Origin: Microbacteriaceae bacterium
GTDB taxonomy: Bacteria; Actinomycetota; Actinomycetes; Actinomycetales; Microbacteriaceae
Assembly: GCA_019638805.1 (NCBI GenBank)
Contig: JAHBTA010000001.1
Span: forward strand, 372,001 to 436,000
Direction of reading: 5' to 3'
Length of the DNA stretch: 64,000 bases
The notes below the pieces were generated by a model, which saw only the letters and a program-made list of their open reading frames with translations, did not search any database and was not told where the DNA came from. Numbering within the stretch: the first letter of the stretch is position 1; every line of letters begins with the position of its first letter. The position numbers and the translations under genes are program-made. Below are positions 993 to 37,298 of this stretch, piece after piece.

Positions 993-1031
993 TGCTAAAG
1001 CGCCACAGCACGCAGGTTATCCGCTTTAGCA
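993..1031. promoter_or_regulatory. Inverted LacI-like half-sites upstream of the FAD oxidoreductase
   Basis: TGCTAAAGCG at 993-1002 and its exact reverse complement CGCTTTAGCA at 1022-1031 form a perfect 10-bp inverted repeat with a 19-bp spacer, just upstream of the FAD oxidoreductase start. The half-site matches TGCCAAAGCG in the 11957-11974 palindrome of the same locus, so both may be read by one LacI-family regulator. This is inferred from sequence likeness only. Confidence 0.55.
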
Positions 1032-1157
1032 CTCGCGAGTCAAGCACCGGACCCGTCGCCCGGATTCGGCAGGCCGCGGGGTCCACGAAGCGCAGACGTG
1101 GGGTGCCGGATACCCCTAGCCCAGACTGGGGCGCGTGGACCTCGCCCCCGGCCTGGA

Positions 1158-2174
1158 TCACGACGCTGTCTGGCTACCCTCGTGCCAGTGTGCGGCGGCC
1201 CGGGCCCCCGCCTCGCGGAGCCAGCGCGCCGGGTCGGCCATCGCGGCCTCGACCGATCCGGCCAGATCCGTGAGGCTCGCGCTCCAAGCGATGCCGTCGA
1301 GCGAGCCGGCGATGGAGCCGGCGACGACCCCGACGGGCGTGTCCTGTGCCAGTTCCAGCACGGCGCCCACCACCTTGCCCGTCCGCGAGGACGCGTCGAA
1401 GCGCCCCTCGCCGGTGAGCGCCAGGTCCGCGCGTCGGACTGCGTCGCCGAGGCCCGTCAACGTGGCGATATATTCCGAGCCCGGCTCCAGGCGTGCTCCC
1501 CAGCACGCGAGGCCGTAGCCGACACCGCCGGCGGCCCCCGCACCGGGAGCGTGCGGGTCGCCGCCCAACTGACGCGCGACCTTCTCGAGCCGCTCCTCGA
1601 GCACCGCGATCTCGCGCGCCGAGGCTCCCTTCTGGGGTCCGAACACGGCCGCCGCTCCGTCCGGGCCCAGGAGAGGGGCCCGAACGTCCGTGAGGACGAC
1701 GGCCCCGTCGACCGGCGGACGCCGGTGACCGATCGCCTCCAGCATCGGAACGCCGGCATCGGTGCTGGCCGACCCGCCGATCCCGAGCACCAGTCGCGGG
1801 GCACCGGCGTCGAGGACCGCCGCGATCACCTCGCCGAACCCGCGGCTCGTCGCGCCGAGCGCATCGAGCTCGGGCATGAGCGGGAGACCGGACATCTGGG
1901 CGAGCTCGATCACCGCGGTCCCGTCCGGCAGCTCGAGCCACTCGCCCGGAGTCGGCCTGCCGTCGGGTCCCGTGACGTCGCCGACCGTGCGGCGGACGCT
2001 GCCGGGGACCGCGCGCTCGACCGCGTCGACCGTCCCCTCTCCCCCGTCGGCCTGCGGCAGGAGGTGCAAGGTGTCGCCCTCGTAACGAGATCGCCATCCG
2101 TCCGCGATCGCCTGAACAACGTCGGCGGCACCCAAGGTGCCCTTGAACGAGTCCGCGGCGATGACGGCATCCAT
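1158..2174 (-). CDS. glxK: Glycerate kinase
   Basis: The 338-residue protein belongs to the glycerate kinase family (GlxK/GarK, PF02595), which phosphorylates D-glycerate. The N-terminus carries the family signature AADSFKGTLGA followed by QADGGEGTVDA, and the middle holds GIGGSASTDAG, the usual Gly-rich substrate and nucleotide region. It is somewhat shorter than the usual 370-380 residues, but start and end look intact. A weak Shine-Dalgarno sequence precedes the ATG. It lies in the leftward sugar operon between a decayed GH32 gene and an FAD oxidoreductase. A glycerate kinase fits a pathway that yields glycerate from a cleaved or oxidised sugar acid; the exact source is not evident. Confidence 0.9.
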   Translation of the reverse strand: MDAVIAADSFKGTLGAADVVQAIADGWRSRYEGDTLHLLPQADGGEGTVDAVERAVPGSVRRTVGDVTGPDGRPTPGEWLELPDGTAVIELAQMSGLPLMPELDALGATSRGFGEVIAAVLDAGAPRLVLGIGGSASTDAGVPMLEAIGHRRPPVDGAVVLTDVRAPLLGPDGAAAVFGPQKGASAREIAVLEERLEKVARQLGGDPHAPGAGAAGGVGYGLACWGARLEPGSEYIATLTGLGDAVRRADLALTGEGRFDASSRTGKVVGAVLELAQDTPVGVVAGSIAGSLDGIAWSASLTDLAGSVEAAMADPARWLREAGARAAAHWHEGSQTAS

Positions 2175-2183
2175 GCTTCGACG

Positions 2184-3165
2184 CTACTGGAACCTGTCGA
2201 GACGGCTCGCAGACCCCGGCTTTGCGCCGTCCGGCCGACCGGCCAGCGGCCACGCCTGCAATCTCCTCACGACGATGCCTCCGCCCACGGCAGTCAGCGC
2301 CAGGCGCGTGGGGAGCCGCGGCATATAGACGGCCGCGCTCATCGCCGTGTCAAACCGGCCGGCAAAGAGCTCGATGCTCGTCGAGTCGAGCACGACCGTC
2401 AGGTCGAGAAGCCCGCCGGGCTGGAGCTCCACGCGAGCGGTGGCGACCCCTCGCTCCACCCGTCGGCACCGTTCCGGTCCAGGGAAAGCACCTCGTCGTT
2501 CGGCCGATACGTCAACGAGATGGCATGTCGGCCGTCGTCCGCAAGAAGGCCCAGATCGACTCTCGCCAGTGAGTGAGGGATCTCCAGCTGGACCGCGAGT
2601 TCAACCGGCCCGGCCTCGGACTGGAGCGGAAGCTCATGTGTCCCCTCGTCGAGCACCGCATGAATGGGCTCCTCCTCGGCGCCTCGCAAGCGGTGCGTTT
2701 CGCGGACCGGAGCGAAGGTCAGCCGCTCGCCATCCCGGAGTCGTACTTCCTGCGGCAGCGACAGGCTGCCGCACCACGTCGTGATCCACGGTGGACCGAA
2801 GTCCGTGAATCCGGGCATCCAGTGCCAGGAGTTCATCCAGGCGATCAGCAGTCGCCGCCCGTCCGCGGAGACATAGGTCTGCGGCGCGTAGAAGTCGATG
2901 CCCTGATCGACCTGGCCGTGAGAGCGCCAGGTGAACCGGCACTCGGCGAAGTCCATCTCTCCGACGAGATAGATGGTCGTGACCGCTCCCGTCCCCATCG
3001 GCGAGAACATCAGCACCCACGTGTCGTCGACGGGGAACAGGTCGGGACATTCCCACATCGACCCCATGTCGTCGGTGCCCGAAGCCAGGACGCCGAGGTA
3101 CGTCCAGTGCGTCAACTCCTCGGCCGAATACAGCAGCGCGCACCCACGGCCGTCGATGCTCGAGC
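2184..3165 (-). pseudogene. GH32 beta-fructosidase remnant, N-terminally truncated and frameshifted
   Basis: The reading frame shows the middle and C-terminal parts of a glycoside hydrolase family 32 enzyme (sucrose/fructan hydrolase type). The acid/base motif is present in MWECPDLFPVDD, as are the downstream FYAPQTY and RRLLIAWMNSW blocks. The N-terminal WMNDPNG nucleophile region and the RDP motif are gone: homology starts abruptly at IDGRGCALLYS near 3157, where LacI-like sequence on the other strand begins. A second lesion is a one-base frame change near 2450-2462, after which the beta-sandwich tail (DLTVVLDSTSIELF) continues in another frame to the stop at 2184. Neither piece could make an active hydrolase. 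With the adjacent PfkB kinase, this looks like a decayed sucrose or fructan locus. Confidence 0.85.
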
Positions 3166-3451
3166 CGACTGGCCGGACGCGATCTTCGGCGCCAACGATC
3201 TCGTCGCCCTGGGTGCTCTTCAGGCGTGTCTGGGGGCTGGGATCCGCGTTCCGGAGGATCTCGCCATCATGGGATACGACGACATCGGCTTCGCCGCGCA
3301 AGCGGCGGTTCCCCTGACGACGGTCCGGCAGCCGGCCTACGAACTGGGTCGCGTCGCCGCGGAGATCCTACTCGCCGACGCGGGAGCCGGGCCCGACGTG
3401 GCGCGACACGTGACGTTCACGCCCGAGCTGATCGTCCGCGCCTCGGCGTGA
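3158..3451 (+). pseudogene. LacI-family regulator remnant (C-terminal fragment)
   Basis: About 95 codons in one frame match the C-terminal end of a LacI/GalR regulator: AIFGANDLVALGALQA, then the MGYDDIGFA block and LTTVRQPAYELGRVAAEIL. The helix-turn-helix and most of the ligand-binding domain are absent. The fragment begins where the oppositely oriented GH32 remnant ends (about 3158-3170), so one deletion removed both 5' ends and the divergent promoter between them. The open frame continues artificially upstream through antisense GH32 sequence. It is not expected to be functional. Confidence 0.85.
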
Positions 3452-3487
3452 ACCCAGCCCCGCGGTGGAGCATCGAGCCGCCGCGGT

Positions 3488-4402
3488 TCATCGCTCTTCG
3501 GAGGCGCGACGTGCGAGCTCGCGCTCGACCTCCTCGCGGGTCGGCAGGTCGGCGCCCGCTCTGCTCACCGTGATGGCCGCGGCGGCCGCCGCGCGTCGCC
3601 CCGCGGTCGTGAGAGCCTCGGCGTCGGACCCGAGTCGTGCGTCCGCGACGGTCGCCACCAGGGCCGCCATGAAGGTGTCGCCCGCACCGACACTGTCCTC
3701 GACCCGCTCGACGGGGTGAGCGACGCGTACGCGCGCGGCCTCCGACGCGATCAGCGCGCCGTCGCCGCCGAGGGTCACCGCGACGACGCGAGAGCCCGTC
3801 GCGAGGAAGTGATCGAGGATGTCGTCGAGGCCCGCGTCCGGATACAGCCACTCGGCGTCCTCACGGCTCAGCTTGATCAGGTCGCTCGCCGACGCGATCT
3901 CCCCGGTGGTGCGGATCGCGGCCTCCCGGTCGCCGATGAGCGAGGGCCTGATGTTCGGGTCGAAGGTCAGGCGCACGCGGTCGCCCCACGCTCGGAGCGC
4001 GTCGCGGACGCTCGAGGCGCCGGGTTCGACGAAGCACCCGACGGAGCCGACGTGGACGACGTGCGCGTCGCCGAGCTCGAGAGGCTCCCCGATGCGCCAC
4101 TCGATGTCGAACTCGTACCGCGCGTCGCCCTCCCGCGAGATGCGGGCCACGGCGCTCGACGTCCGGTCGAGCACGAACGACTCCGCCTCGACCTCGACCC
4201 CGGACGCGGCCAGGTGGTCGTGGATCCGCCTCCCGCGCTCGTCTCGCGCGAGGGCCGTCCGCAACCGCACGGGCAGGCCCAGCCGGCCGAGCCCGAGCGC
4301 GACGTTGGCGGGAGAGCCGCCCACGTGCTCTTCCGGCGCACGGCCTTCGCGTTCGACGACGTCGATCAGCGCTTCGCCGACGACGAGCACCCGATCAGCC
4401 AC
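3488..4402 (-). CDS. PfkB-family sugar kinase (fructokinase-like)
   Basis: The 304-residue protein is a ribokinase/PfkB-family carbohydrate kinase. The substrate-binding GGSPANVALGLGRLG block is near residue 30 and the C-terminal catalytic signature EDSVGAGDTFMAALV contains the aspartate base. The GTG start is preferred over an upstream ATG because it aligns with the usual family N-terminus (VLVVGEALID) and overlaps the stop of the preceding LacI-like gene by 8 bases, as expected for translational coupling. Its closeness to a GH32 remnant suggests it began as a fructokinase of a sucrose locus; it may now phosphorylate another sugar of the operon. Confidence 0.85.
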   Translation of the reverse strand: MADRVLVVGEALIDVVEREGRAPEEHVGGSPANVALGLGRLGLPVRLRTALARDERGRRIHDHLAASGVEVEAESFVLDRTSSAVARISREGDARYEFDIEWRIGEPLELGDAHVVHVGSVGCFVEPGASSVRDALRAWGDRVRLTFDPNIRPSLIGDREAAIRTTGEIASASDLIKLSREDAEWLYPDAGLDDILDHFLATGSRVVAVTLGGDGALIASEAARVRVAHPVERVEDSVGAGDTFMAALVATVADARLGSDAEALTTAGRRAAAAAAITVSRAGADLPTREEVERELARRASEER

Positions 4403-5069
4403 GCCGCACTCCCGCCTGGGTGGCGCCCCGCGGCGCATAGGACGCGCGCAGGACGGTCCGCTGCGGCGTGGCCAGCGGATCGGCGACCCGGCGGATGATC
4501 GCCTCGCCGGCGAGCCGACCCATCTCGCCGATCGGCTCCTCCAACCAGTGCGCGTCGTCCAGGGGGTAGGCGCCGTAGCCGGGGTCCCGATAGCCGAGGA
4601 TCTCGACGTTCCGGTGCGAGAGCGTGCCGGCGTGGAACGCCGCGAGCAGCTGGCTCGTCAGGACGTTGTTGCTCGCCACGATCGCCGTACATCCTGCGTC
4701 CATGAGGCTCTCGGCGCACGGCTGCACGGGGTCGCTCATGGACTCAAGGTAGCGGACGAGCGTCGGGTCGAGAGCCACCGAGTGCTTCGTCAACGCCGTC
4801 CGGTAGGCCCGGACGCGTTCGGCCGTCATGCTGAGATGGCGCACGCTCGCCATGAAGCCGATCCGGGTGTGCCCGTGGGCGATCAGCGCGGACACCCCTT
4901 CGGCGATGGCATCGGAGTTGTCGGTGGTGACGACGTCGACCGGGGCGTGGGCGAGGCCGCGGTCGATGAGCACGACGGGGAAGTGCCGAATCGAGAGCGC
5001 GATAAGCCGCGCTCCGACATCGACCCAGGGGGCCGGGATTCGACGCCGCCGCGCGACGCCGTCGCTCAC
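4395..5069 (-). pseudogene. LacI-type ligand-binding domain lacking DNA-binding region
   Basis: The frame encodes about 224 residues of a LacI/periplasmic-binding-protein-like sensor domain: FPVVLIDRGL, then VTTDNSDAIAEGVSALIAHGHTRIGFM and IVASNNVLTSQLLAAF. A full regulator is about 330-350 residues; here the helix-turn-helix and the first part of the N-terminal subdomain are missing. The only available start is a GTG that overlaps the stop of the rpiB-type gene as GTGA, while the isomerase upstream is complete. The simplest reading is a deletion that fused the downstream part of a regulator gene to the operon. The frame is still open, so a free sensor protein cannot be excluded. It differs in sequence from the other LacI fragment at 3158-3451. 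Confidence 0.65.
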
Positions 5070-5536
5070 GAAGGGCGGCGGCGCTCGAAGTCGGTGATCT
5101 CCGCGACCTTGTCGTTCGACGGCGACGCGGGATCGAATCGATAGCCGAGCCACTCCTGCGCGAGGCGGCGCGCGAGCTCGAGACCGATCACCCGCTCCCC
5201 CATCGTCAGCACCTGGCAGTCGTTCGACAGCACCGATCGCTCGCAGCTGTAAGAGTCGGCGACGACGGTCGCCCGGATGCCCGGGACCTTGTTCGCGCTG
5301 ATCGCCATCCCGATCCCGGTTCCGCAGATCAGGATGGCGCGATCCGCGTCGCCCGACGCGACCAGCTGGGCGGCCTCGATCCCGACCTGCGGATACGGCC
5401 GCACCTCGGCATCGAAGACACCCAGGTCGACGACCGACGACACGCGCGGGTCGCCGCGCAGGTCCTCGGCGATGCGATCCTTGTATCGACGGCCCGCCTC
5501 GTCGGCCCCGACGACGATGCGCCACTGCTCGGTCAC
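5066..5536 (-). CDS. RpiB/LacAB-family sugar-phosphate isomerase
   Basis: The 156-residue protein belongs to the RpiB/LacA/LacB family that interconverts aldose and ketose phosphates. The catalytic cysteine lies in ILICGTGIGMAISANK, and the phosphate-binding Arg-rich region and the tail EWLGYRFDPASPS are present. Together with the TIM-like gene of the same operon it matches the EryI/EryH (or DerI/LerI) isomerase pair known from erythritol and threitol catabolism, where the RpiB homologue makes D-erythrose 4-phosphate from D-erythrulose 4-phosphate. That assignment rests on context. The ATG overlaps the stop of the upstream Tm-1-like gene (ATGA). Confidence 0.85.
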   Translation of the reverse strand: MTEQWRIVVGADEAGRRYKDRIAEDLRGDPRVSSVVDLGVFDAEVRPYPQVGIEAAQLVASGDADRAILICGTGIGMAISANKVPGIRATVVADSYSCERSVLSNDCQVLTMGERVIGLELARRLAQEWLGYRFDPASPSNDKVAEITDFERRRPS

Positions 5537-6780
5537 CTGCGGTCCCCCTCTTGCTCGTGCAACGCGATGAATCGGTCGGCGACGGCATCCGCGAATGCCA
5601 CGTCGTTGATGTGGGAGTCGGACGTCGTCACCGTGATCTCGGGGCGGAGCGCGCCGACCAGGCGCTCGATGAAGGCCGCGTCGGACGCGGGATCCGCGAA
5701 CGGTCCCCCCGGCGCGTCGTAGCTGTCGAAGCCTCCGCGCGGGACGAGGACCTCGACGCTCCCGACCGCCGCGTTGAGCCGGGCCGCGACCTCGTCGGCG
5801 ATCCGGAAGAGCTCCTCCGGCGTCGCTCGCACCGCGGTCACCTGGGCGTTGTGCCGCACCAGCGGCCGGGATCCGTCGCGGAGCTGCTCGGGCACCGTGT
5901 CGAAGGCGCCGAAGTTGATCACCTCAACGGCGCCGGGCACCACGACGTGCGGGACGCCGAGTCGGCCCGCCGTACGCAGCCGATCGGGGCCCGCGACGAA
6001 GACGCCGCCGAGCAGGTCGTCGGTGACCTCCTTGATCGTGAGATCGATGACGCCGCTCAGCACGCCCTCGCCGACGAGGCTCTCGAGCGCCCGACCGCCG
6101 GAACCGACGGCATGGAAGACGATCGGGTCGAAACCCGCCCGCTCGAGGCGCTCGACGATGCGCAGGCCCGCCGGAGTCGTGACCCCGAGCATCGTCACGC
6201 CGACCGCGGGGGCGTGCTCGACCGCCGACTCCTCGGAGGTCGCCGCGATCATGCCGGCGAGCGCTCCCGCCGCGTTGCGGAGGATCGGCCGCGAGATGCG
6301 GTTGAGGCCCGCGATGTCGGTCACGGAGTGCAGGATGCACAGGTCGCTCGACTGCACGTACGGGCTCACGTCGCCGGATCCCATGGTCGAGACCAGGAGC
6401 TTGGGCACCCCGAGGGGAAGGGAGCGCATGACCGCGCTCAGCAGCGCGCTGCCGCCAGAGCCGCCCAGACCGAGCACGCCGTCGCAGCGCCCCGCCGCGC
6501 GGAGATCCGCGACGACGGCGATCGCACCCCGGCTCATGACCTCGAGTGCGTGGGCGCGGGTGTCGCTGCCCTCGCGAACGAAGCGGAGGTCGTCGAGCGA
6601 TACGCCTGCGGCGCGCGCGACCTCGGTCGCGCTCACGTCCACGGGGATCGCGGGATCGGCGAGCACGCCGACGTCGATCAGGACGACGTGGAGGGCGGCG
6701 CCTTCGAGCGCCGCGCGCACGAACTCGTACTCACGCCCCTTGGTGTCGAGCGCGCCGATCAGGACCGCGGTGCGCGTCAT
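5533..6780 (-). CDS. Tm-1-like ATP-binding (UPF0261) protein
   Basis: The 415-residue protein is a UPF0261/Tm-1-like family member. The N-terminal signature IGALDTKGREYEFVR belongs to the ATP-binding Tm-1 fold, followed by GVLGLGGSGGSALLSAVMR and a C-terminal half with PRGGFDSYDAPGGPF. Plant homologues form the N-terminal half of Tm-1, whose C-terminal half is the PEP-hydrolase-like TIM barrel. Here the two halves are separate neighbouring genes joined by an ATGA overlap, which supports a joint function. Their bacterial role is unsettled; in this operon a step in sugar-acid or tetrose metabolism is plausible. Confidence 0.85.
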   Translation of the reverse strand: MTRTAVLIGALDTKGREYEFVRAALEGAALHVVLIDVGVLADPAIPVDVSATEVARAAGVSLDDLRFVREGSDTRAHALEVMSRGAIAVVADLRAAGRCDGVLGLGGSGGSALLSAVMRSLPLGVPKLLVSTMGSGDVSPYVQSSDLCILHSVTDIAGLNRISRPILRNAAGALAGMIAATSEESAVEHAPAVGVTMLGVTTPAGLRIVERLERAGFDPIVFHAVGSGGRALESLVGEGVLSGVIDLTIKEVTDDLLGGVFVAGPDRLRTAGRLGVPHVVVPGAVEVINFGAFDTVPEQLRDGSRPLVRHNAQVTAVRATPEELFRIADEVAARLNAAVGSVEVLVPRGGFDSYDAPGGPFADPASDAAFIERLVGALRPEITVTTSDSHINDVAFADAVADRFIALHEQEGDRR

Positions 6781-7613
6781 CGCCCGCGGAGCCGGAGGTC
6801 GCGGAACGAACGGACGGTCTCCTCGATCGCGCGCTCGACGGGAAGCCGTTCGATGCTCGACGCGCCCAAGAAGCCGTCGACGTCGACCCGGTCGTACACC
6901 GCTTGCACGTTCTCGGGCTCATCGAAGGGTCCACCGTGGGCGACGACCCAGATCCCGGGACGCTCGGCGCGGGCGGCGACCGTCATCTCGGCCACCCGGT
7001 CGCACGCTTCGTCGAGCGCGAGCGCGTCCTGCGCGCCGATCATGCCGCCGACGGTGAGCCCCACGTGGGCTCCGATGACATCCGCGCCCGCGCGCGCCAT
7101 CCCCGCCGCCTCGTCGGGCGTGAACGCGTACGCGATCGAGAACACGTCCTGCCGGTCGCACGCGGCGATGAGCTCGACCTCGCGCGGGTATCCGAGGTCG
7201 GTGGCGTTGATGTGGGCTCGGAAAGTGCCGTCGTAGATGCCGGCGGTGGGGACGTTCGTGATCCCCGAGAAGCCCAGTTCGATCAGCTGCCCGATGAGGC
7301 GGATCGGGTCACGATACGGATCCGCCGCGCCGATGCCGGCGATCACCGGGGTGTCGCGCACGACCGGGAGCACGTGGCGAGCGAGGTCGATCGTCATGCC
7401 GTTCGAGTCGCCGTAGGCGAGATAGCCCGAGAGGGAACCGTGGCCGTCCATCCGGAACGGGCCCGTGTTGTACGCCATGAGCGCGTCGATCCCGGCGCGG
7501 TCGGCGGCCTTCGCGATCAGCCCGACACCCGCTCCGCCGATCACGAGCGGCTCGCGCGCCGCCACGCGAGCGGCGAAGCGTTCCCGAATCTGCTGTCGAG
7601 ACATTCCGGTCAT
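6777..7613 (-). CDS. Phosphoenolpyruvate hydrolase-like TIM-barrel protein
   Basis: The 278-residue protein matches the PEP-hydrolase-like family (PF09370). Its conserved pieces are AYNTGPFRMDGHGSLSGYLA, PVIAGIGAADPYRD, GFSGITNVPTAGIYDG and the VGLTVGGMIG loop near the C-terminus. The fold is an isocitrate-lyase-like TIM barrel. An AAGGAG box 9 bases before the ATG supports the start. The gene is coupled to the Tm-1-like gene downstream and follows the TIM-like isomerase, and Tm-1-like and PEP-hydrolase-like genes commonly travel as a pair. The true substrate is unknown; C-C bond cleavage or hydrolysis on a small keto-acid or sugar phosphate is an inference. Confidence 0.8.
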   Translation of the reverse strand: MTGMSRQQIRERFAARVAAREPLVIGGAGVGLIAKAADRAGIDALMAYNTGPFRMDGHGSLSGYLAYGDSNGMTIDLARHVLPVVRDTPVIAGIGAADPYRDPIRLIGQLIELGFSGITNVPTAGIYDGTFRAHINATDLGYPREVELIAACDRQDVFSIAYAFTPDEAAGMARAGADVIGAHVGLTVGGMIGAQDALALDEACDRVAEMTVAARAERPGIWVVAHGGPFDEPENVQAVYDRVDVDGFLGASSIERLPVERAIEETVRSFRDLRLRGR

Positions 7614-7619
7614 GAGCTG

Positions 7620-8414
7620 TCACTCCTTGACGGCCGCGAGGGCCGAGTCGATGATCTGGTCGAGCTGGATGAAGACGTCCACGTCGAGCGCGGCCCGGCC
7701 GACGAAGAGCCCGTCCACGTCGACCAGTGCGACGAGCTCCGCGGTGTTCTCCGGGCGGACGCCGCCGCCGTAGAGCACGGGCAGGCGCTCCCCCGCGGCG
7801 CCGAGGTCCTGCGCGGTGTGCCGGATCACGCGGTGCGCCTCGGCCACCTGGTCGGGGGTCGCCGGAGTTCCGTCGACTCCGATCGACCACGCCGGCTCGT
7901 ACGCCACCACAACGCGGTCCCACCCGTCGTCCGCGAGGCCGTGCAGGGCGACCCGCAGTTGCCGGTCGACCGTCGACGCGGCCGCGCCGACCCGGCGCTC
8001 GTGCCCGAGCTCGCCGACGCACAGCAGGGGCCGCAGCCCGGAGTCGAGCGCGCGGCGCACCTTCGCCCGCACGAGCTCGTCGTGCTCGTGGTGGTCCCGT
8101 CGGCGCTCCTGATGACCGATCTCCACGAGCGTCGCTCCGGCGTCGACGAGCATCCGGGCCGAGACGTCACCGGTATGCGCCCCGTCCGGTTCGGGATGCA
8201 CATCCTGCGCCCCGACGAGCACGCCGGAGCCGGCCAGGACCTGGGCCACGCGGGCGATCGCCGTGAACGGAGGGACGACGAAGAGCTGCGTCGTCGACGA
8301 CCGGGTGGCGGCGTACGCCGCCAGGCTCCGAGAGTACGCCTCCGCTTCCCCGAGCGTCTTGTTCATCTTCCACGACGTCCCCAGCCACGGGGCCGAGCGA
8401 GCGCCCGCGATCAT
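7620..8414 (-). CDS. Triosephosphate isomerase-like enzyme (tetrulose-phosphate isomerase candidate)
   Basis: The 264-residue protein is a triosephosphate isomerase homologue. It begins GTSWKMNKT where glycolytic TIM has GNWKMN, so the lysine is kept while the active-site Asn is replaced by Ser. The catalytic His is in VEIGHQERR (normally GHSERR) and the catalytic Glu in VAYEPAWSIGV. These changes are typical of the EryH/LerI class that isomerises L-erythrulose 1-phosphate to D-erythrulose 4-phosphate. An RpiB-type partner two genes downstream strengthens that view. Start ATG 8414 lies three bases after the preceding dehydrogenase stop. Residual triose-phosphate activity is possible. Confidence 0.8.
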   Translation of the reverse strand: MIAGARSAPWLGTSWKMNKTLGEAEAYSRSLAAYAATRSSTTQLFVVPPFTAIARVAQVLAGSGVLVGAQDVHPEPDGAHTGDVSARMLVDAGATLVEIGHQERRRDHHEHDELVRAKVRRALDSGLRPLLCVGELGHERRVGAAASTVDRQLRVALHGLADDGWDRVVVAYEPAWSIGVDGTPATPDQVAEAHRVIRHTAQDLGAAGERLPVLYGGGVRPENTAELVALVDVDGLFVGRAALDVDVFIQLDQIIDSALAAVKE

Positions 8415-8417
8415 CGG

Positions 8418-9542
8418 TCAGACCGCCGCCCGGTCCCGCGAAGCGCCCAAGAAGGCCTCCGCGACGGCGGGCGGGATGGCGACGTCGACCTCCTCGCGCG
8501 CCACGAGGCTGGAGGCGAGCGCCTCCATCGTGAAGGTGTTCACGACCGTCTCCGCGAGGGAGACCCGCGGCGCGGACGCCCCTCGGACGACCTCGGCGAC
8601 GTTCAGCAGCTGATCCTGGAACGCGTTGGAGCGCGGAACGGCGAGCCGGTCGTCGATGGTGCGGAAGATCCGCTCGCTGTCCCGATGACTCGTGGGGATG
8701 GAGCGGCGGATCGTGATCTCCGTCTCGTCGTAGATCGTCCAACTGAAGGGGAGGTAGAGCGTTCCCAGCTCGGCGGAGATCTGGAGCTCCTGCGTCGAGT
8801 CGGAGATCTCGCTCGCCTCGATCATGCCGACGACGCCGTTGGCGTAGTCGATGAGTCCGAGGATCTTGTCGCTCGTGCCGAACTCGTTCGCCGGGCGGCC
8901 GAACGCGGCGACCCGGGTGGGGATCGACGCCGCCACGTGGGTGCACGCGTTGATCGCGTAGGCGCCGATGTCGTAGAGCGCCCCGCCGCCCTGATCGGCG
9001 CGGAATCGCCACGGGCGGTTGGGGTCCTTCGGGTCGATCCCCAGCTCCGAGGCCAGGTTGACGTACGTGAAGCTGGCGCGGACGTGATCGATCGCGCCGA
9101 GGGCGCGCGCGTCGAGCAGCCCGTCGATCCGCGTGATCGCCGGGTGGTGGCGGTACATGAACGCCTCGGTGATGGTCGCACCGTAGCTCGCGGCGAGTTC
9201 CCAGACCTCGAACGCCTGGGCACCGGTGAGCACGAACGGCTTCTCGCAGAGGATGTGACGGACTCCCGCCTCGACGCACTGCCGGATGAGCTCGAGGTGG
9301 GTGCTCGGCCAGGTGGCGATGATGACGGCGTCGAGGTCCTCGACGCGGAGCATCTCGGCGACGTCGCCGTAGGCGTGCGCCCACCCGAAGCGTTCGGCGA
9401 GGGCGGCAGCCGCCGCGGGGTTGGCGTCGGCGACGGCGACGAACTCGACGTCACGCGGGATCGCAGCCGCGGCGGTGCCGTGCACGCCCGCGATGTAGCC
9501 GGCGCCGATGACGCCGAGACGGACGGGAGACTGAGCGGACAT
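8418..9542 (-). CDS. Gfo/Idh/MocA-family NAD(P)-dependent dehydrogenase
   Basis: The 374-residue protein has an N-terminal Rossmann fold (LGVIGAGYIAGVHG) and the family EKP motif in HILCEKPFVLTG, with catalytic-type residues in GGGALYDIGAYAINAC further on. Family members oxidise or reduce sugars, inositols and their derivatives using NAD(P). It is complete, with a purine-rich GGAAGAGAA leader, and lies between an amidohydrolase and the TIM-like isomerase. A role in oxidising the imported sugar or polyol is reasonable, but substrate specificity cannot be predicted. Confidence 0.85.
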   Translation of the reverse strand: MSAQSPVRLGVIGAGYIAGVHGTAAAAIPRDVEFVAVADANPAAAAALAERFGWAHAYGDVAEMLRVEDLDAVIIATWPSTHLELIRQCVEAGVRHILCEKPFVLTGAQAFEVWELAASYGATITEAFMYRHHPAITRIDGLLDARALGAIDHVRASFTYVNLASELGIDPKDPNRPWRFRADQGGGALYDIGAYAINACTHVAASIPTRVAAFGRPANEFGTSDKILGLIDYANGVVGMIEASEISDSTQELQISAELGTLYLPFSWTIYDETEITIRRSIPTSHRDSERIFRTIDDRLAVPRSNAFQDQLLNVAEVVRGASAPRVSLAETVVNTFTMEALASSLVAREEVDVAIPPAVAEAFLGASRDRAAV

Positions 9543-9571
9543 TCTTCTCTTCCTTTAGCGGTAGGCGGAGC

Positions 9572-10351
9572 TCAGCGATGAGCGTCCAGGACGCGTTGGA
9601 CGTTGGCGAACAGCACGTCGTCCTTGGCGGTCTCGGGGATGTCGGCGGCGAGCACGGATCGATGCACGTCGCCGAGGTCGTAGAACGGGGTGTCGCTGCC
9701 GAACACGACGCGATCGGAGCCCACGGCGGCGACGAGCTCCTCGGTCAGCGCGGGGTCCGACTGATAGGCGATGTCGAAGTAGACGTGCGGGAACTCGCGC
9801 ACGATCTCGATCGCCTCGGCCTTCTGCTGGGAGCTCAGGAAGGCGTGCCCGAGGAAGGTCGTGACGTTCGGGAACCGGCTGACGACCGTTCGCACGGCGG
9901 CGGCGGACTCACCCGACCCGGGGTCCGGCGAGCTGTGCATCAGGCAGATCGCCCGGCGGTCGTCGAGGATCTCCCAGAGCGGGTCGACCCGGAGCGGGGT
10001 GTCGAGGTAGTAGCCCTCGAGCGTCGGATGGACGGCGATGCCCGCGAGGCCGAGCTCGTCGAGGATGCGGATCAGCTCCGTGACGGCGTGCTCCTCGTGC
10101 CGCGGCTCCACGAGCCCGAAGCCCGTGGGGAAGCGATCGGGGTGATCCCGCACCGCCGCGGCGACGACGTCGTTCATGCGCCGCGTGTCGACGATGCCCT
10201 CGACCTGACGATCGGCCGCCGCCGGCGAGAGCAGCGCCTCGCTGACCGCCGCGGCATCCATGCGTCCGATCAGCTCGTCGACCGTCTGCCCGATGTTGTT
10301 CGCGACCGTCTTGCCCACGTGGGCGTGGACGTCGATCACCCGGCGCGTCAT
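9572..10351 (-). CDS. Amidohydrolase-family (Amidohydro_2) metal-dependent hydrolase
   Basis: The 259-residue protein shows the amidohydrolase-2 pattern: the metal site VIDVHAHVGKT at the start, AVHPTLEGYY, GHAFLSSQQ with another metal histidine, and VVFGSDTPFYD with the late aspartate. The ATG at 10351 is chosen because it overlaps the cupin stop (ATGA) and aligns with the family N-terminus; a longer frame upstream is antisense to the cupin gene. Relatives decarboxylate or hydrolyse small ring or lactone compounds, so lactone opening or decarboxylation of an oxidised sugar fits the operon. Evidence for a particular reaction is lacking. Confidence 0.8.
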   Translation of the reverse strand: MTRRVIDVHAHVGKTVANNIGQTVDELIGRMDAAAVSEALLSPAAADRQVEGIVDTRRMNDVVAAAVRDHPDRFPTGFGLVEPRHEEHAVTELIRILDELGLAGIAVHPTLEGYYLDTPLRVDPLWEILDDRRAICLMHSSPDPGSGESAAAVRTVVSRFPNVTTFLGHAFLSSQQKAEAIEIVREFPHVYFDIAYQSDPALTEELVAAVGSDRVVFGSDTPFYDLGDVHRSVLAADIPETAKDDVLFANVQRVLDAHR

Positions 10352-10779
10352 GGCGCGGTCTCGGTGTCGACGACGTCCGTGTGCATGAGGACGGGCTCGC
10401 CGGGGGCCACGATGAGGTGCGCGGTCTCGGGCGTGCCCGACTCGGGCCCCGCGGGGCTGTACATGACGAGCAGGCGCAGCGGCTCCCACCCGGTGTTGTG
10501 CGAGTCGTGCCCGACTCCCGTCGGGACGTAGACGGCGTCGCCGGGGCCGATCGGCATCCGCAGGTTCTCGCCGACCCCGAACGAGCCGTGGCCGGACAGG
10601 ACGTACACGATCTCATCGCTCTCCGGGTGGTCGTGCCACTCGTGCGACTTGCCCGGGAGCACGACGACCTCGCCGCACGACAGGGTCGAGCCGTGGGTCT
10701 TCTGGCTGACGAGCCACTTCGCGACGCCCCAGGACAGGACCGTGGTCTCGACGTCGTTCGCGTTGACGACGCCGGTCAC
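10348..10779 (-). CDS. Cupin-domain protein
   Basis: The 143-residue protein is a single-domain cupin. The first metal motif is in SHEWHDHPESDEIVYVLSG and the second in VPTGVGHDSHNTG, giving the usual His/His/Glu/His set. The GTG start overlaps the stop of the upstream reductase (GTGA) and aligns with the fold's beginning. Small cupins in catabolic operons act as sugar isomerases, lactone-related enzymes or ligand sensors, and nothing here separates these options. Confidence 0.8.
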   Translation of the reverse strand: MTGVVNANDVETTVLSWGVAKWLVSQKTHGSTLSCGEVVVLPGKSHEWHDHPESDEIVYVLSGHGSFGVGENLRMPIGPGDAVYVPTGVGHDSHNTGWEPLRLLVMYSPAGPESGTPETAHLIVAPGEPVLMHTDVVDTETAP

Positions 10780-14371: not shown

Positions 14372-15245
14372 CGCCGCCGTCCTCCCCTCGCGACCGCGGT
14401 CCCGGCGACGTCGGTTCCCGGTCGGCAGCGCCGTCGCCGTCGTCATCCTGAGCCTGGGCGGGATCGGGATGATCGCGCCGTTCCTGTGGATGATCGTCAC
14501 GGCGCTGAAGTCCCCGGAGCACCTGTTCGACGTGCCGCCGAACTGGATCCCGCTCGAGTTCGAGTGGGACAACTTCTGGAAGGCCGTGAACGGTCCGCTG
14601 CCTCTGTTGCGGAACCTGTTCAACAGCACGTTCATCGCCGTCGTCGGGACGCTCGGCATCCTCATCACGGCGCCGATGGCCGGATACGCGTTCGCGCGGC
14701 TGCAGTTCCGCGGTCAGAACGCGATCTTCCTGGGCCTGCTCGCCTCGCTCATGGTGCCGGTCCAGGTGACGATCATCCCGCTGTTCCTCATCATGCGGAA
14801 TCTGGGCGTCATCAACACCCCTTGGAGCCTCATCCTCCCCGCTCTCACGTGGGCGTTCGGGGTCTTCCTGATGCGCCAGTTCTTCCTCACGGTGCCGAAG
14901 GAGATCCTCGAGGCGGCGCGCATCGACGGGGCGGGTCCATGGAAGACCTACCGCCTGGTCGCGCTTCCGCTGGTGAAGAACGGGCTCAGCGCGCTCGGCG
15001 TCATCGCATTCCTCAACAATCCCTACCTGTGGAATGCGTACTTCGCGCCGTCGATCTTCCTCAACAGTCAGGACACGGCGACCCTGCCGCTTGCCCTCGT
15101 GCTGATGCAAGGGCCGTTCAGCACCGGTCAGATGAACGTCGTCATGGCGGCGACGACCCTCGCGGTGCTCCCGGCTCTGATCGTCTTCCTCGTTGCGCAG
15201 CGCTGGATCATCGCCAGCCTCACGCAATCCGGGGTCAAGGGCTGA
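14364..15245 (+). CDS. Sugar ABC transporter permease (MalG/UgpE type)
   Basis: The 293-residue membrane protein is the second channel subunit. It has six predicted membrane spans and the EAA motif EAARIDGAGPWKTYRLVALP. The long loop after the first membrane segment and the length match the MalG class. Its stop overlaps the 3' end of the convergent LacI gene by 11 bases. No nucleotide-binding subunit follows, a common situation in actinobacteria where one ATPase serves many importers. Confidence 0.9.
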   Translation: MSSAAVLPSRPRSRRRRFPVGSAVAVVILSLGGIGMIAPFLWMIVTALKSPEHLFDVPPNWIPLEFEWDNFWKAVNGPLPLLRNLFNSTFIAVVGTLGILITAPMAGYAFARLQFRGQNAIFLGLLASLMVPVQVTIIPLFLIMRNLGVINTPWSLILPALTWAFGVFLMRQFFLTVPKEILEAARIDGAGPWKTYRLVALPLVKNGLSALGVIAFLNNPYLWNAYFAPSIFLNSQDTATLPLALVLMQGPFSTGQMNVVMAATTLAVLPALIVFLVAQRWIIASLTQSGVKG

Positions 15246-16272
15246 CGCCGAGGCGGCGGATCGACTCGCGCCGCACCAGCGTGCTGGCGATGGCCATGTG
15301 CTTCTCCGTGCGCAGCGGCTCGCCCTTGAGCTCGGCGACCAGGATGTCGACCGCCACGGCACCCATCTCGTAGTAAGGCAACGCCAGCGTCGTCAACGCT
15401 GGTGATAGCGCCTCGGCCACGATCTCCTGATTGTCGAATCCGACGACGGAAAGATCCTTGGGGATCGCGAGGCCTGCCTCCCGCGCTGCGCGATAGGTGC
15501 CCATCGCCATCCGATCGTTGAAACAGAACACGGCGGTCGGGCGCCGTGAGCGGAAGAGCGCCGACGCTGCCTCGTAGCCATCCATGGCGAACGTACTGCG
15601 GCCTGCCACTACGAGAGACCTGTTGAACCGGATCCCCGCGTCCCTCAGCGCGGCGCGATATCCCTCAAGTCGTCCTTCGCGCGCGGGGATGGAGGTCATC
15701 GTGTTGATAAAGGCGATCGACGTGTGGCCGGCACGGATCAGCTCTTCCGTCGCGGCGTAGCCGCCCTGATACTCGTCGGGGTAGACCGAGCGATGAGCTC
15801 GCTGAGTCGATTCAGCGTTGACAACGATGAGAGGCTTTCCGTCGAGTGAAGTGGGCACGTCAAGTACACGATGATGCCCTGCGGCATATAAGACACCATC
15901 AACCTGATGCCGCCATATCGCAGAGATTTCGCGCTCTTCGACAATCTTCAGCTTGCCGGTGGTCATTACGATCAGGAGCCATCCGTGACGCGATGCCGCT
16001 TCCTGCGCGCCAAGAATCAGCTTGCCCGCATATGGAGTCGTTGCTATCTCATCGCTGAGCAGAGCAAGGGTGTTCGATCGATGGGTTCGGAGTGCGCGCG
16101 CGAGTCCATTGGGCTGATAGCCCAGTTCTCGGGCCGCGATCTCGACTCGTTCGCGAGTCGCATCCGCCACCCGCGCACCCGGAACTCTGTTGAGCACGTG
16201 CGACACTGTCGTCGGAGACACGCCGGCGCGGAGCGCGATGTCGGTGATGTTCGGACGTCCCTGTCGAGTCAC
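15235..16272 (-). CDS. LacI-family transcriptional regulator
   Basis: The 345-residue protein is a complete LacI/GalR regulator. The N-terminal helix-turn-helix ITDIALRAGVSPTTVSHVLN and hinge helix PNGLARALR are followed by a periplasmic-binding-type sensor domain with VFCFNDRMAMGTYRAAREAG and VVGFDNQEIVAEALSP. It is convergent with the importer operon. It is the only intact regulator in the catabolic locus and therefore the best candidate to bind the LacI-type sites at 993-1031, 11957-11974 and 16390-16410. The inducer is presumably the transported sugar. Its codon use is slightly less GC-rich than its neighbours. Confidence 0.9.
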   Translation of the reverse strand: MTRQGRPNITDIALRAGVSPTTVSHVLNRVPGARVADATRERVEIAARELGYQPNGLARALRTHRSNTLALLSDEIATTPYAGKLILGAQEAASRHGWLLIVMTTGKLKIVEEREISAIWRHQVDGVLYAAGHHRVLDVPTSLDGKPLIVVNAESTQRAHRSVYPDEYQGGYAATEELIRAGHTSIAFINTMTSIPAREGRLEGYRAALRDAGIRFNRSLVVAGRSTFAMDGYEAASALFRSRRPTAVFCFNDRMAMGTYRAAREAGLAIPKDLSVVGFDNQEIVAEALSPALTTLALPYYEMGAVAVDILVAELKGEPLRTEKHMAIASTLVRRESIRRLGVSP

Positions 16273-31900: not shown

Positions 31901-32026
31901 GTGCTCGATCCCGCCGGATTGTTGGGCGCGAGGCGCGTCGCAGGTGCCCTCAAACGCGTAGGCGACCGCCTGCTGCACGCCATCCGATGCGACACCGCGC
32001 TTCCACCGCTCCAACCCACCCCTCAC
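28997..32026 (-). CDS. MobF-family conjugative relaxase-helicase (TrwC/TraI-like)
   Basis: The 1009-residue protein combines a TrwC-type relaxase and a RecD/TraI-like helicase. The relaxase region shows MNMPKSYSLAVLL and the metal-binding histidines in DPHIHRHLWLGV near residue 174. The helicase has Walker A GPAGTGKTTLLK near residue 485, IVVDEGGMVDL as motif II and HGIQGETVHASYIG near the end. It nicks at oriT, stays attached to the 5' end and unwinds the strand for transfer. A basic, coiled C-terminal tail of about 120 residues follows. GTG is the start. The 112-bp leader contains repeats and is a candidate oriT. Confidence 0.9.
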   Translation of the reverse strand: MRGGLERWKRGVASDGVQQAVAYAFEGTCDAPRAQQSGGIEHAVGYGGAGGGTIARFTVTGAGIDEFPLDAGSFARWVDGADPVTGVPRGRVLTSPDADLFLDATMNMPKSYSLAVLLTPELRDGFEALQDRIRDRTLTMWQRELNARRGAGGLIRESIARLEVVELRHERSRALDPHIHRHLWLGVKVLGEDGKWSNVDSRVAMKLHTVVNAEGDLASRTDPTWVAALATHGYTLDADGEIAQLAHLVRPLSRRSNQIEANRALRLARWRQAHPGQHPDHAVLASIDRWAWAQHRPGKPEHLDEVAWQDLVRSEIAELDARADLPRPAAKVATTPLGGLDRDLLAGTAIADADRRSAGSGGRFSRYDVRAGTLRALAGSGIVTDRTLLDEIVEDITHRALTAHVVDFLDGETAVPGHVKQFMSLQTAQDKLDLATRLDRLNEPGHDLPFGEIVRLAEVVLDADTNLDPGQVGAAGAVAGTNRVVTVTGPAGTGKTTLLKVARRALHDQGRGMVVVAPTRKAATVAGREIGTAASSLHALLVDHGYRFAEDATGRTVWTRLVNGDADEVTGVVYSGPRRYPIRPGDRIVVDEGGMVDLQLANAVAQLALDTGAGIAMVGDHLQALPVGHSGAMATAQRRSGSVVELTAVHRFKDSDYAALTLRLRDPADHDAAVAVTRELCDRGQLKAVGSEYEARERMVAAWLHHAARGERVALVTATNAEAQQINDRIQQERLDRHQLTPNRFALGQHGQYLLVGDIVQTRRNDTDTGVDNRATWTITRIRRDRIDLASITDSGDRRTITRTYAAEHVHLAYASTVHGIQGETVHASYIGPGIDASGLYVGMTRGRVANTAMTIARNREDVIEQLADTMKRGKPEVTLDDSRHAARSELGRAARDPHRPPIVEQLAAADERQRALRDALRQIDVRDAALNAAGHGRQHSSAAEDAVREIAVRRRALRGALDAERDRMDALLRDYQADRDPTRTEDMALGAEWDPVVPPGGSGPTLGL

Positions 32027-32061
32027 GGATCCACGGTAAGCGCGCAGCGTCGGCCCACGCC

Positions 32062-32125
32062 CGAGTGCCTGCGTGCATCACCCGAAGTCTGTTACTGGGT
32101 GCATCAAGTCTGTCGCGGGGACGGA
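32062..32125. other. Candidate oriT region upstream of the relaxase
   Basis: The 112 bp between the relaxase start and the PIN gene contain GTGCATCA twice, each followed by AGTCTGT (directly in one copy, after CCCGA in the other), plus CACCC/GGGTG as a short inverted pair between them. Relaxase genes of conjugative elements often abut their oriT. No known nic consensus was recognised, so this is positional evidence only. Confidence 0.35.
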
Positions 32126-32138
32126 GTCCGGGACCACA

Positions 32139-32579
32139 TCAGTCGAGAAGAGCAAGACGAGGAGCGTTCTCGAAGTGCCGTCGATTTCCGGTGAGGAGCG
32201 GAAGGTCCTTCGCGATGGCACACGCGGCAATCCAGCGGTCGCCGACGTGGTTCCGCTTGTCGCCCAACGGGTGGCCGGCCTTCTGAGCCTCAGCGAGTAA
32301 CCGCGCATAGGCAGCGATCACTTCGACGTCCTCGTCGATCGTCGGCGCAGCATCCAAGATCTCCTGGACTGTGGCGAGTCGCCGCTCCCCCCAGCCGTTG
32401 AGCAACGCGCCGGAGAGAATCTCCGCGCGCGTTTGGAAGGAGATGAGCGGGCGTCGCCCGGTCAGGGCCTCCGTCCATTCGTCGACAGGATGACCTTGCC
32501 TCAGTGCATTCTCACGCGGGGTGACGTAGAGCGCGCTGAAGACGTCCGTGTCGACCAGAACTGCCTGAGCGACTGCCAC
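32139..32579 (-). CDS. PIN-domain ribonuclease (VapC-like toxin)
   Basis: The 146-residue protein is a PIN-domain nuclease. The acidic metal-binding residues appear in LVDTDVFSALY at the start, RAEILSGALL in the first third and KRNHVGDRWIAACAI in the last third. Such proteins are VapC-type toxins or defence effectors cutting tRNA or other RNA. Its GTG directly abuts the stop of the 286-residue upstream gene, and no ordinary short VapB antitoxin is present. The upstream protein ends in a tail like those of toxin-binding antitoxins. The gene is last in a four-gene leftward unit starting with a helicase. Confidence 0.8.
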   Translation of the reverse strand: MAVAQAVLVDTDVFSALYVTPRENALRQGHPVDEWTEALTGRRPLISFQTRAEILSGALLNGWGERRLATVQEILDAAPTIDEDVEVIAAYARLLAEAQKAGHPLGDKRNHVGDRWIAACAIAKDLPLLTGNRRHFENAPRLALLD

Positions 32580-33440
32580 TCATCGCCCGATCGCCTCGAA
32601 GAAGGACGCCGCCTCTTCGTCGGTGAGTCCGGGGATACCCCCGAGCTTCGGTCCGGGCGCGCTGGCAAGAATCTGGTCGACCGGGACTACGCCGCGTACG
32701 CCAGCCGTCCCAGGAACGGGTGCTGCGGCTTCAATGACAGCGTCATGGATCAGGGCCAAGCGTCCTTTGGCGTCTCGCTCGGGAGCGCCGACGACGGAGA
32801 CGTAGCCCCCCAGCAGACGACCAACTTCGGTGTCATCCGTCACGTTCGGCAGAGCAATCTTGTTCCCGACGTCGTCGGTGACCTGAAGGCGATGGGTGTC
32901 GAGGTTCACAGCACGGAGCCGTCCGACGAAAGTGACCGCTTCGGGTGTGCCGGCTGTGTCAGCCGACTTCCACGTCTCTCTTAGGGTGTCTGCGGTCTTG
33001 AAGGAGCGCGTCACCTGCCCGCTGACTTTGAACTCGACTTTCGGCGCCGCCTTCTCGAGCGCTCCTCGAAGATCACCGACGGCGATAGCGAGGGTGTCCG
33101 TAACCCAACTCGGTCGCTCGTTGAGCGCGATGGATTCGACTACGGCTTGGAACTTCTCGTCGAAGGTCTTCTCCTCTTCGAGGTCGAAGTCGAGCGAATC
33201 CTCGTCGTCGGCTCGGCGGACCAATACTTTGGTGCTTCCGGGGGCGAGCCCGATCGTGAGTCTTGCGACACGCTGCGTGCGCTTCGGCGGTCGACCTACG
33301 GCATCAGCCTCGGTCTCCGCACGTCCGAGCTTGGTGGCCACGTCCTTGAGGCTCTGCACGATGGCGATGAGGTGGTCAGCTTCGAGCTCGCCCTCTGGGG
33401 CGTCGGCGTCGATCAGTCTAAATTCGAACTGTGTTGCCAT
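32580..33440 (-). CDS. Unknown protein with OB-like domain, candidate PIN partner
   Basis: I do not recognise this 286-residue family. It begins MATQFEFRLID and has a helix with LIAIVQSLKDVATKLGRAE. Residues 170-240 (VGRLRAVNLDTHRLQVTDD, GYVSVVGAPERDAKGRLAL) look like a small OB- or beta-barrel fold. The tail GIPGLTDEEAASFFEAIGR resembles toxin-binding C-termini of PIN antitoxins. The gene directly precedes the PIN gene without a gap, so neutralising the nuclease is a sensible hypothesis, but it is several times longer than normal antitoxins. It could instead sense a ligand or nucleic acid and switch the PIN enzyme. Lower GC than the surrounding transfer genes suggests separate acquisition. 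Confidence 0.55.
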   Translation of the reverse strand: MATQFEFRLIDADAPEGELEADHLIAIVQSLKDVATKLGRAETEADAVGRPPKRTQRVARLTIGLAPGSTKVLVRRADDEDSLDFDLEEEKTFDEKFQAVVESIALNERPSWVTDTLAIAVGDLRGALEKAAPKVEFKVSGQVTRSFKTADTLRETWKSADTAGTPEAVTFVGRLRAVNLDTHRLQVTDDVGNKIALPNVTDDTEVGRLLGGYVSVVGAPERDAKGRLALIHDAVIEAAAPVPGTAGVRGVVPVDQILASAPGPKLGGIPGLTDEEAASFFEAIGR

Positions 33441-33566
33441 CTGGATTCACCTCCGCCCTGCTCGCGCACCTGAAGCGGCCAAGGGTATCGACACGGTCTG
33501 ACCTTGGTCGTCGCTCCAGGCTAGCGGCGCGGGTGCTGGATCGGGGAGGGTGCCCTCCGATCGTGT

Positions 33567-33794
33567 TCAGCCCAGTGCGACCCGTAGGGCCTGGAGATCG
33601 TCGGCAGCCTGATCGAGGATCGCGAGAGCGTGCTCAGGGCAATAGTTCTTGGACCCTCCGGTTGTCGGATCCTTGATGACCAGGCAGACAGTGCCGCTTT
33701 CGATGTTGTGATTCTTTCGCGTCCGGTGACAGATTCTTCTCCGCTGAGCCGTTTCGACGCTGCACACGCCGAGCACCTTCCTGACTTGAGGCAT
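33567..33794 (-). CDS. Cys/His-rich mini-protein of the helicase-PIN unit
   Basis: The 75-residue protein has cysteines and histidines spaced like a zinc-binding module: C11, C22-H23, C37 and CPEH at 52-55, then a helical tail (ALAILDQAADDLQALRVAL). Its ATG overlaps the helicase stop (ATGA), so it is co-translated with the helicase. No known family was recognised; it may be a small adaptor or nucleic-acid-binding subunit. Confidence 0.6.
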   Translation of the reverse strand: MPQVRKVLGVCSVETAQRRRICHRTRKNHNIESGTVCLVIKDPTTGGSKNYCPEHALAILDQAADDLQALRVALG

Positions 33795-35857: not shown

Positions 35858-35865
35858 GCCGATAC

Positions 35866-35895
35866 CATACAACCTATCTCAACCTTATACAACTC
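35866..35895 (-). promoter_or_regulatory. Three 10-bp direct repeats at the helicase gene start
   Basis: On the plus strand CATACAACCT, ATCTCAACCT and TATACAACTC stand head to tail at 35866-35895, one helical turn apart and just 9 bp before the helicase ATG (minus strand). The TATAAG within them could be a -10 box. The fused MerR-type HTH might bind here to control its own gene. Confidence 0.5.
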
Positions 35896-36128
35896 CCGCC
35901 GCGACGGTCGCCGGAGTCCCCACGCGCTGTTCCGTCTCCACCACTAAGGTTCCGCGCGGCCTCGGTTCCGCGCCTAAGCGGGCCGATGACTTGACAGCCC
36001 GATGCTGCCGTCACTGGCAGAGGACGAGGAGCAGATGACGGTGTAGTTCCGCGGCCCGGGCTGTCGGCGGCGCGGGGCGCAGCGCGCGGTGTGCGGCTTC
36101 TCCTCTGCCATGCCAGGAAGGTGTCCGC

Positions 36129-37298
36129 CTACATCGTGAAGATGGTGGTGCGCCAGTGGCGCGGGCCGTATCGGACACCGAACCGGTCCGCGGCCCGGGC
36201 GAGCACCGCGGCCGGCACGCCTAGCGATTTGACGATGACCAGGGTGACGAGCATGCGGGTCGCATCCCGAACGGCTCGTGACTCGGCCTCGTCGACGTAT
36301 CGCGTGCCGCGGGTGTTGTTGGGTGCACCCTCGTGGGCGATGTCGTTGCGCACCCAAACCAGGTGATCGAGCCATTCCGACGCGTCCACCTTGGTCGCTG
36401 ACATCAGAGCCGGTCCCAGGTCGTCGATGAGCGCCTGCATGCCACTGCGGAAGCTATCGCTGTACGGGACGCGCAGCAGCTCGCGGGCGGTGCGCTGGGC
36501 GATCGCGGACAGGGCGATGATCGAACTTTCCACGTATCCCGGCTGGTAGAGGGTCCCGGCGAGCACCTGCGTCACCGGACGCAGATCGACGCGGGCGCGC
36601 CACCATCGGTCGATCGCCGCGGCGCTGTAGGTCCCCGAGAGGCGGAACGTCAGGTCGTAGGGCTCCCGAGATCGCCGGTTGAACGGCGCGAAGCGATCGT
36701 GGCCGTGGACCCTCACGGTGCGACCCGCGGCGTCTATCGCGGCGAGCGAGAGCCGCCCGATCGGCTGGTCCTCGATGATCGTCAGGAGGTCCTGGAAGGC
36801 GGCCAGGTGGGCGTCGTACTCCGTCAGAGCAGCGGGTGCAGCCGACCTAAGAACGGCCGCGGCCCCGGCGCTGGGAAAGCGCAGCTCCATCGCACGGGCC
36901 TGCTCGACCGCCGGAAGCTGGATCGGGTCATCAGGGGATCGGGCGGCGCCATCCTCGAAGCGGTACGCGGTGCTGGCCGCGCCATGCTCGTAGACAGCTC
37001 GGACCTCGACGTATTCCGGCGTTAACTCGTCCGACCCGACGCTCAGCTCGGACAGGAGCAGCCCTCGTTGGCCGCCGCCGATCCAGGTGTCCCCGCGCAG
37101 CGCCACCTGCTCGCCGTCGAGGGAGCCCTGAACCTCACGCTGGGTGGAGGTGCCTGTGCGAATCGAGAACGAGTGACCCGTGACGAGGACCACGCGCCCC
37201 TCGTGCTCCACGAGCTGACCATGACCCCACCCGGCATCGACGCCGACTACCGTGAAGTCGAGGTCCGCCGGCAGCGTCAGCCCGCTGGAGAACAGCAT
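36129..37298 (-). CDS. ApeA-like HEPN protein (candidate phage-defence effector)
   Basis: The 389-residue protein has an N-terminal beta-rich region (about residues 1-120) and a helical C-terminal half ending in a HEPN ribonuclease signature, RNDIAH in WLDHLVWVRNDIAHEG near residue 318 (RNxxxH). The region DLTFRLSGTYSAAAIDRWW through YVESSIIALSAIAQRTARELL follows the ApeA-like HEPN pattern. ApeA proteins act in abortive phage defence, presumably by RNA cleavage. The ATG at 37298 follows the stop of a 51-residue gene by 13 bases; the longer open frame upstream is a shadow of the two small genes. Confidence 0.7.
   Translation of the reverse strand: MLFSSGLTLPADLDFTVVGVDAGWGHGQLVEHEGRVVLVTGHSFSIRTGTSTQREVQGSLDGEQVALRGDTWIGGGQRGLLLSELSVGSDELTPEYVEVRAVYEHGAASTAYRFEDGAARSPDDPIQLPAVEQARAMELRFPSAGAAAVLRSAAPAALTEYDAHLAAFQDLLTIIEDQPIGRLSLAAIDAAGRTVRVHGHDRFAPFNRRSREPYDLTFRLSGTYSAAAIDRWWRARVDLRPVTQVLAGTLYQPGYVESSIIALSAIAQRTARELLRVPYSDSFRSGMQALIDDLGPALMSATKVDASEWLDHLVWVRNDIAHEGAPNNTRGTRYVDEAESRAVRDATRMLVTLVIVKSLGVPAAVLARAADRFGVRYGPRHWRTTIFTM

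Follow-up and report, generated by a model that had tools for sequence, protein, structure and literature searches.

Stumps of a GH32 gene and a LacI-family gene, probably not former partners, at a likely deletion scar in a Microbacteriaceae genome

The window analysed here, a stretch of 64,000 nucleotides (372001 to 436000 on contig 1 of a draft genome of 3.14 Mb, with 10 contigs, 98.2% completeness and 69% G+C), carries the stumps of a GH32 gene and a LacI-family gene placed head to head between the open frames of a glycerate kinase and a PfkB-family sugar kinase (Table 1). Our analyses point to a scar of gene decay, in which a deletion most likely joined the stumps of two genes that were probably not partners and left both non-functional. 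The decay at this locus is real but ordinary, and it struck one gene out of several related ones.

The GH32 remnant was delimited with Pfam (GH32N, PF00251) and with an HMM built from 15 homologs. The last homologous residue lies at approximately 3163 (position 187 of 497 of the model). No single open frame runs through both GH32 domains; the 3' end of the remnant, which corresponds to model positions 430-491, is read in another frame, and the frameshift claimed in the preliminary description was thus confirmed. Since the adjacent genes have open frames, the frame change does not reflect a stretch that is rich in errors throughout. Alignment with four homologs (two from the same genome, one from G736 and one from G987, the last with its C-terminus cut by a contig end) revealed that the remnant has no WMNDPNG and no FRDP motif and retains WECPD; all three motifs were present in 4/4 homologs, the first as W-I/L/M-NDPNG. 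In GH32 enzymes the Asp of WMNDPNG is the nucleophile, FRDP stabilises the transition state and the Glu of EC(P) is the acid/base catalyst. Because WMNDPNG and FRDP are missing, the product of the GH32 remnant should be dead.

The LacI remnant was examined in the same manner using an HMM of 42 LacI homologs. Homology begins at approximately 3155 by the HMM (position 286 of 399), and pairwise matches to intact LacI proteins begin at 3158 or later. These end points agree with the earlier placement of the GH32 end near 3157 and of the LacI start within a dozen bases. The accompanying claim that both genes lack their 5' halves was roughly right, as approximately 37% of the GH32 model and 70% of a LacI protein are missing. 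The genome contains 11 matches to the LacI helix-turn-helix domain (HTH, PF00356), none of them at this remnant, and with its DNA-binding domain absent the product should also be dead. Judged from sequence, the Pfam scores of the GH32 and LacI remnants exclude chance.

Table 1. Coordinates of the stumps, their junction and the adjacent genes in the window
Feature	Positions	Strand	Basis
Glycerate kinase	1158..2174	minus	Open frame; ORF list, Pfam/NCBIfam
GH32 remnant, 3' end (end of GH32C domain)	2184..2459	minus	Other frame; Pfam GH32C (PF08244) 95-158/158, E 5.2e-7
GH32 frame-change zone	2441..2467	minus	Match ends in one frame and starts in the other (HMM)
GH32 remnant, main part	2465..3163	minus	Pfam GH32N 148-307/307, E 9.5e-30; HMM positions 187-423 of 497
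Junction between the stumps	3155..3166		HMM end points of GH32 and LacI
LacI remnant no. 1, last 97 codons	3158..3451	plus	Peripla_BP_3 75-166/167, E 1.3e-25
PfkB-family sugar kinase	3488..4438	minus	Open frame
Second decapitated LacI-family gene, without HTH	4395..5033	minus	Pfam; HMM positions 176-386 of 399

The GH32 and LacI HMM matches overlap by approximately 10 bp, and the junction is therefore tight. It contains an 8-bp palindrome (GCTCGAGC, 3158-3165) that occurs in 10 copies in the window; some 8-bp palindrome is present in 6% of 16-bp windows, and this one was set aside as probably due to chance. We also searched the genome for the missing fronts of the two genes. Four GH32N matches were identified at E 0.001, and the three outside the remnant begin at profile position 1 or 2. 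Ten of the 11 LacI HTH matches belong to frames of 329-468 aa. The remaining one (C3:717898), which at 23 bits falls short of the cut-off, is in a 101-aa frame preceded by a 92-aa frame and was rejected as the missing LacI front since it looks antitoxin-like by eye. The tandem 92-aa and 101-aa frames (L181 1287-1870, contig 3 near 717900) resemble, by eye, a HigBA-type toxin-antitoxin pair. Neither front was found in the genome, in a search that could miss a fragment that is very short, more diverged or located in the missing 2%. With neither front found, deletion is the simplest cause, and the earlier proposal that a single deletion removed both is likely to be right. Comparing the HMM positions with how long intact relatives are, we estimate a loss of at least ~0.5 kb of GH32 and ~0.7 kb of LacI, plus the intervening DNA. 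A deletion of at least ~1.2 kb would thus have taken the GH32 front with the nucleophile and transition-state motifs, the LacI front with the whole DNA-binding domain and anything between, and would have joined the stumps head to head at ~3155-3166; a second lesion would have shifted the GH32 frame at 2441-2467. The region is packed with sugar-use units, and the deletion probably brought together two of them that were unrelated.

Stumps that touch in the right orientation would also be accounted for by an ancestral divergent GH32-LacI pair that lost its shared promoter and both 5' ends in one small deletion. We surveyed gene order among relatives by classifying the nearest LacI gene for 70 GH32 genes in 61 stretches. 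One stretch (L005) is from the same genome, 54 are from other genomes of the family, including one from the sole other genome of the genus compared, and 6 are from the same order. Several stretches could come from a single genome, all except L005 and L084 were hand-picked from the better matches, and in some cases adjoining GH32 genes share an entry. The nearest LacI was on the same strand within 600 bp in 25/70 cases and farther away in 10/70, divergent within 600 bp in 2/70 (both directly adjacent; L142 and L168) and farther away in 9/70, and convergent within 600 bp in 2/70 and farther away in 2/70; no LacI was present in 20/70, a class affected by the stretch lengths of 8-20 kb. The 9 more distant divergent cases have 1.4-3.4 kb between GH32 and LacI, and the two gaps tested contain a DUF2961 gene (L112) and a LacY-type permease (L101). 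Directly divergent pairs are a minority (2/70). A LacI within 600 bp accompanies 29 of the GH32 genes; it is on the same strand in 25 of these, divergent in 2 and convergent in 2. Divergent cases, two adjacent and nine gapped, do occur among relatives, with no ortholog of this locus found; the predominance of same-strand neighbours argues against a divergent pair as its ancestor.

To this can be added the affinity of the LacI stump itself. The best 19 matching loci in 299 family genomes displayed 56-65% identity to the stump, and no GH32 gene was found in the 16 larger stretches taken around 15 of these loci and around the best match in the same genome (63%). Ten neighbour proteins from 9 of the 16 stretches were tested against NCBIfam. 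This analysis revealed an L-rhamnose isomerase beside the LacI gene in L085, L120 and L124 (above the curated cut-off) and a RhaD-type aldolase-dehydrogenase in L129, from the same genome as the stump (above the cut-off), together with rhamnulokinase-like proteins below the cut-off in L123 and L129. Nothing rhamnose-specific was identified in 4/9 stretches, which gave three sugar ABC ATPases below the cut-offs (L116, L117, L125) and one oxidase-like protein (L121). A full-length LacI of the stump's clade in this genome (C1:715491) adjoins a RhaD-type gene. Compared with the proteins of the 61 GH32 stretches the stump reached at best 69 bits (40%), with 45-50% identity over shorter spans, whereas its 12 best rhamnose-type LacI matches scored 108-118 bits (56-62.5%).

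In a tree of 77 intact LacIs the stump fell within a 24-member clade (support 0.94, a placement that rests on 95 aligned columns, with 0.36-0.77 at the nodes just around the stump) that contains 0/45 LacIs from the GH32 stretches. A tree on the columns of the fragment alone gave a wider clade of 26 members with support 0.68. The rhamnose-type stretches were chosen since their LacIs matched the stump best, and it is therefore the exclusion of the GH32-stretch LacIs alone that is informative. The stump is probably a member of a rhamnose-type (RhaR-like) clade, judging by these comparisons, and on this basis the two genes probably never formed a regulator-target pair. Taken together, the gene-order survey and the LacI tree speak against the shared promoter of a cognate pair put forward in the preliminary description, and we consider an ancestral divergent pair unlikely. 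No rhamnose gene was identified beside the stump among the tested neighbours (GH32, PfkB, LacI, RpiB, glycerate kinase and UPF0261). Its clade also holds LacIs beside UPF0261 genes (L082, L083), and there is a UPF0261 gene at a distance of 2 kb from the stump, which may instead derive from the UPF0261 cluster next to it.

That cluster seems to have a full-length LacI of its own at 15235-16272 of the window, which is 54% identical to the LacI of a paralogous cluster on contig 8 (UPF0261 63%, PEP_hydrolase 74%, Gfo/Idh-like 65%, RpiB 43% and TIM 38% identity). The UPF0261 and PEP_hydrolase genes of the window (5533-7613) overlap by 4 bp. Three UPF0261 genes were identified in the genome at E 1e-40, and the other two also adjoin a PEP_hydrolase-like gene. 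The plant virus-resistance protein Tm-1 is described as a UPF0261 domain fused to a TIM-barrel domain (PMC5028733). A literature search turned up no bacterial function. We take the TIM-barrel domain of Tm-1 to be of the PEP_hydrolase family.

The second decapitated LacI gene (region 4395-5066) is a separate scar. It overlaps the start of PfkB and has lost roughly its first third; a gap of ~30 bp separates the stump from the rpiB stop codon, and the rpiB frame is open. The two decapitated LacI genes fall within a 2-kb span, ~1 kb from each other; their remnants show 29% identity over 65 residues, and the second is thus a different LacI. The neighbouring frames are all open (glycerate kinase, PfkB, RpiB, UPF0261, PEP_hydrolase, TIM and Gfo/Idh-like, the last named by eye), and from Gfo/Idh-like to glycerate kinase every gene apart from the LacI stump is on the minus strand. 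PfkB, whose best NCBIfam match is the fructokinase PRK09434 with a score far under the family cut-off, ends 36 bp beyond the stop codon of LacI remnant no. 1, and glycerate kinase starts 9 bp past the stop codon of the GH32 remnant on the same strand. It is conceivable, though quite doubtful, that two deletions (of the two LacI heads and the promoter of the GH32 unit) merged neighbouring sugar-use operons, so that decay would have rewired their regulation and not just cost a gene. One long minus-strand transcript would then start with Gfo/Idh-TIM-PEP_hydrolase-UPF0261-RpiB-PfkB, cross the stumps and continue into glycerate kinase and beyond. A simple scan of 1000-10500 identified no terminator-like site on the minus strand and one on the plus strand (shuffles gave a mean of 1.1), although such scans say little in a genome of this G+C content.

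The scar of decay that we favour was also weighed against an artefact, with a misjoin at the junction and a sequencing error as the frame change. The assembly is a draft, and the locus was found in no second genome; the sole other genome of the genus compared has no match to the neighbouring UPF0261 gene at E 1e-40, and its best match to the GH32 remnant reaches 38% identity. Against this stand the open frames of the adjacent genes, the clustering of separate lesions (the frame change and the second decapitated LacI) within the same 3 kb, and a self-comparison of 2100-5700, which revealed only short imperfect repeats around the junction and nothing favouring a misjoin. An artefact is on this evidence improbable. 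Inversion of part of an ancestral tandem LacI-GH32 pair, followed by loss of the reciprocal junction, starts from the commonest adjacent arrangement (25/29) and by reasoning yields an identical junction when the GH32-front/LacI-back segment is flipped, but it needs two events, neither front was found in the genome or after the LacI stop codon, where PfkB ends, and we regard it as highly improbable.

Intact relatives of the GH32 remnant had been suggested as a means of fixing the breakpoints. No close intact ortholog was found in 398 family, 396 order and 396 phylum genomes, where the top-scoring non-self matches showed 31%, 43% and 39% identity, respectively, and among the matches listed identity never exceeded 44%. 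A short-pattern scan of the genome contigs found no relative, and matches in plasmids (968 records) were each below 60% identity. With no ortholog found, the ancestral breakpoints could not be fixed by this route. A tree of 57 homologs placed the remnant on a long branch beside G736 (support 0.65), too weak for use, and was set aside. The highest-scoring relative (L177 2143-3459, G987:C202) comes from a distant genome, where it borders the end of a contig of 3.5 kb. By eye the protein looks Bacillota-like, perhaps reflecting contamination of that draft genome, and no LacI was found on this contig. A full-text literature search for GH32 and LacI pseudogenes made by deletion gave no match.

Three further GH32 genes are retained in the genome, and their frames are full-length (468, 485 and 525 aa). 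Two of these lie 6-10 kb upstream of the window, accompanied by two LacI genes with HTH and by apparent ABC-transporter genes (named by eye), and the third is on contig 5. The remnant is 28-32% identical to the two upstream paralogs, a level that does not imply a shared substrate. A second PfkB gene, 44-46% identical to that of the window, is located on contig 4. Because three full-length GH32 genes and a second PfkB remain, the loss of sucrose/fructan use that had been read into this locus is not supported by the gene content. Since other GH32 genes were kept, the loss of one among several GH32 copies is the likely consequence.

Recombinase-like frames were observed elsewhere on contig 1. A tyrosine integrase (Pfam) is present at 49947-51200 of the window beside a small frame, with a 1931-aa frame upstream at 41562-47357, and by eye 32000-51200 is perhaps an integrated mobile element. 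An open frame situated approximately 8 kb ahead of the window (L005 11873-12502) resembles by eye the end of a tyrosine recombinase; it carries a perfect 24-bp unit four times in frame and had no Pfam match at E 1e-5.

By itself the GH32/LacI scar is of little importance. The neighbourhood survey and the LacI tree caution that adjacent gene stumps need not be former partners, and a truncated copy is no proof of trait loss when full-length GH32 genes lie a few kb away. The locus would matter more if deletions had indeed fused two operons.

The best solved relative of the GH32 remnant is PDB 7vco (E 4.4e-26, residues 2-221 of 232), from the GH32 sucrose-6-phosphate hydrolases/beta-fructosidases. 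Like these enzymes the remnant keeps WECPD; unlike them it has the nucleophile and FRDP motifs deleted and its C-terminal domain partly out of frame. A LacI-type RhaR is described in Actinomycetales (PMC3870299), and the LacI stump groups with LacIs to which it is 56-65% identical and some of which adjoin an L-rhamnose isomerase. In contrast to these regulators, the stump consists of the last 97 codons, is without HTH and has no identified rhamnose gene alongside. Ordinary bacterial pseudogenes arise by deletion, and those so made likewise combine truncation, a second lesion in one gene and the retention of other gene copies; the GH32/LacI scar differs from them in nothing of kind.
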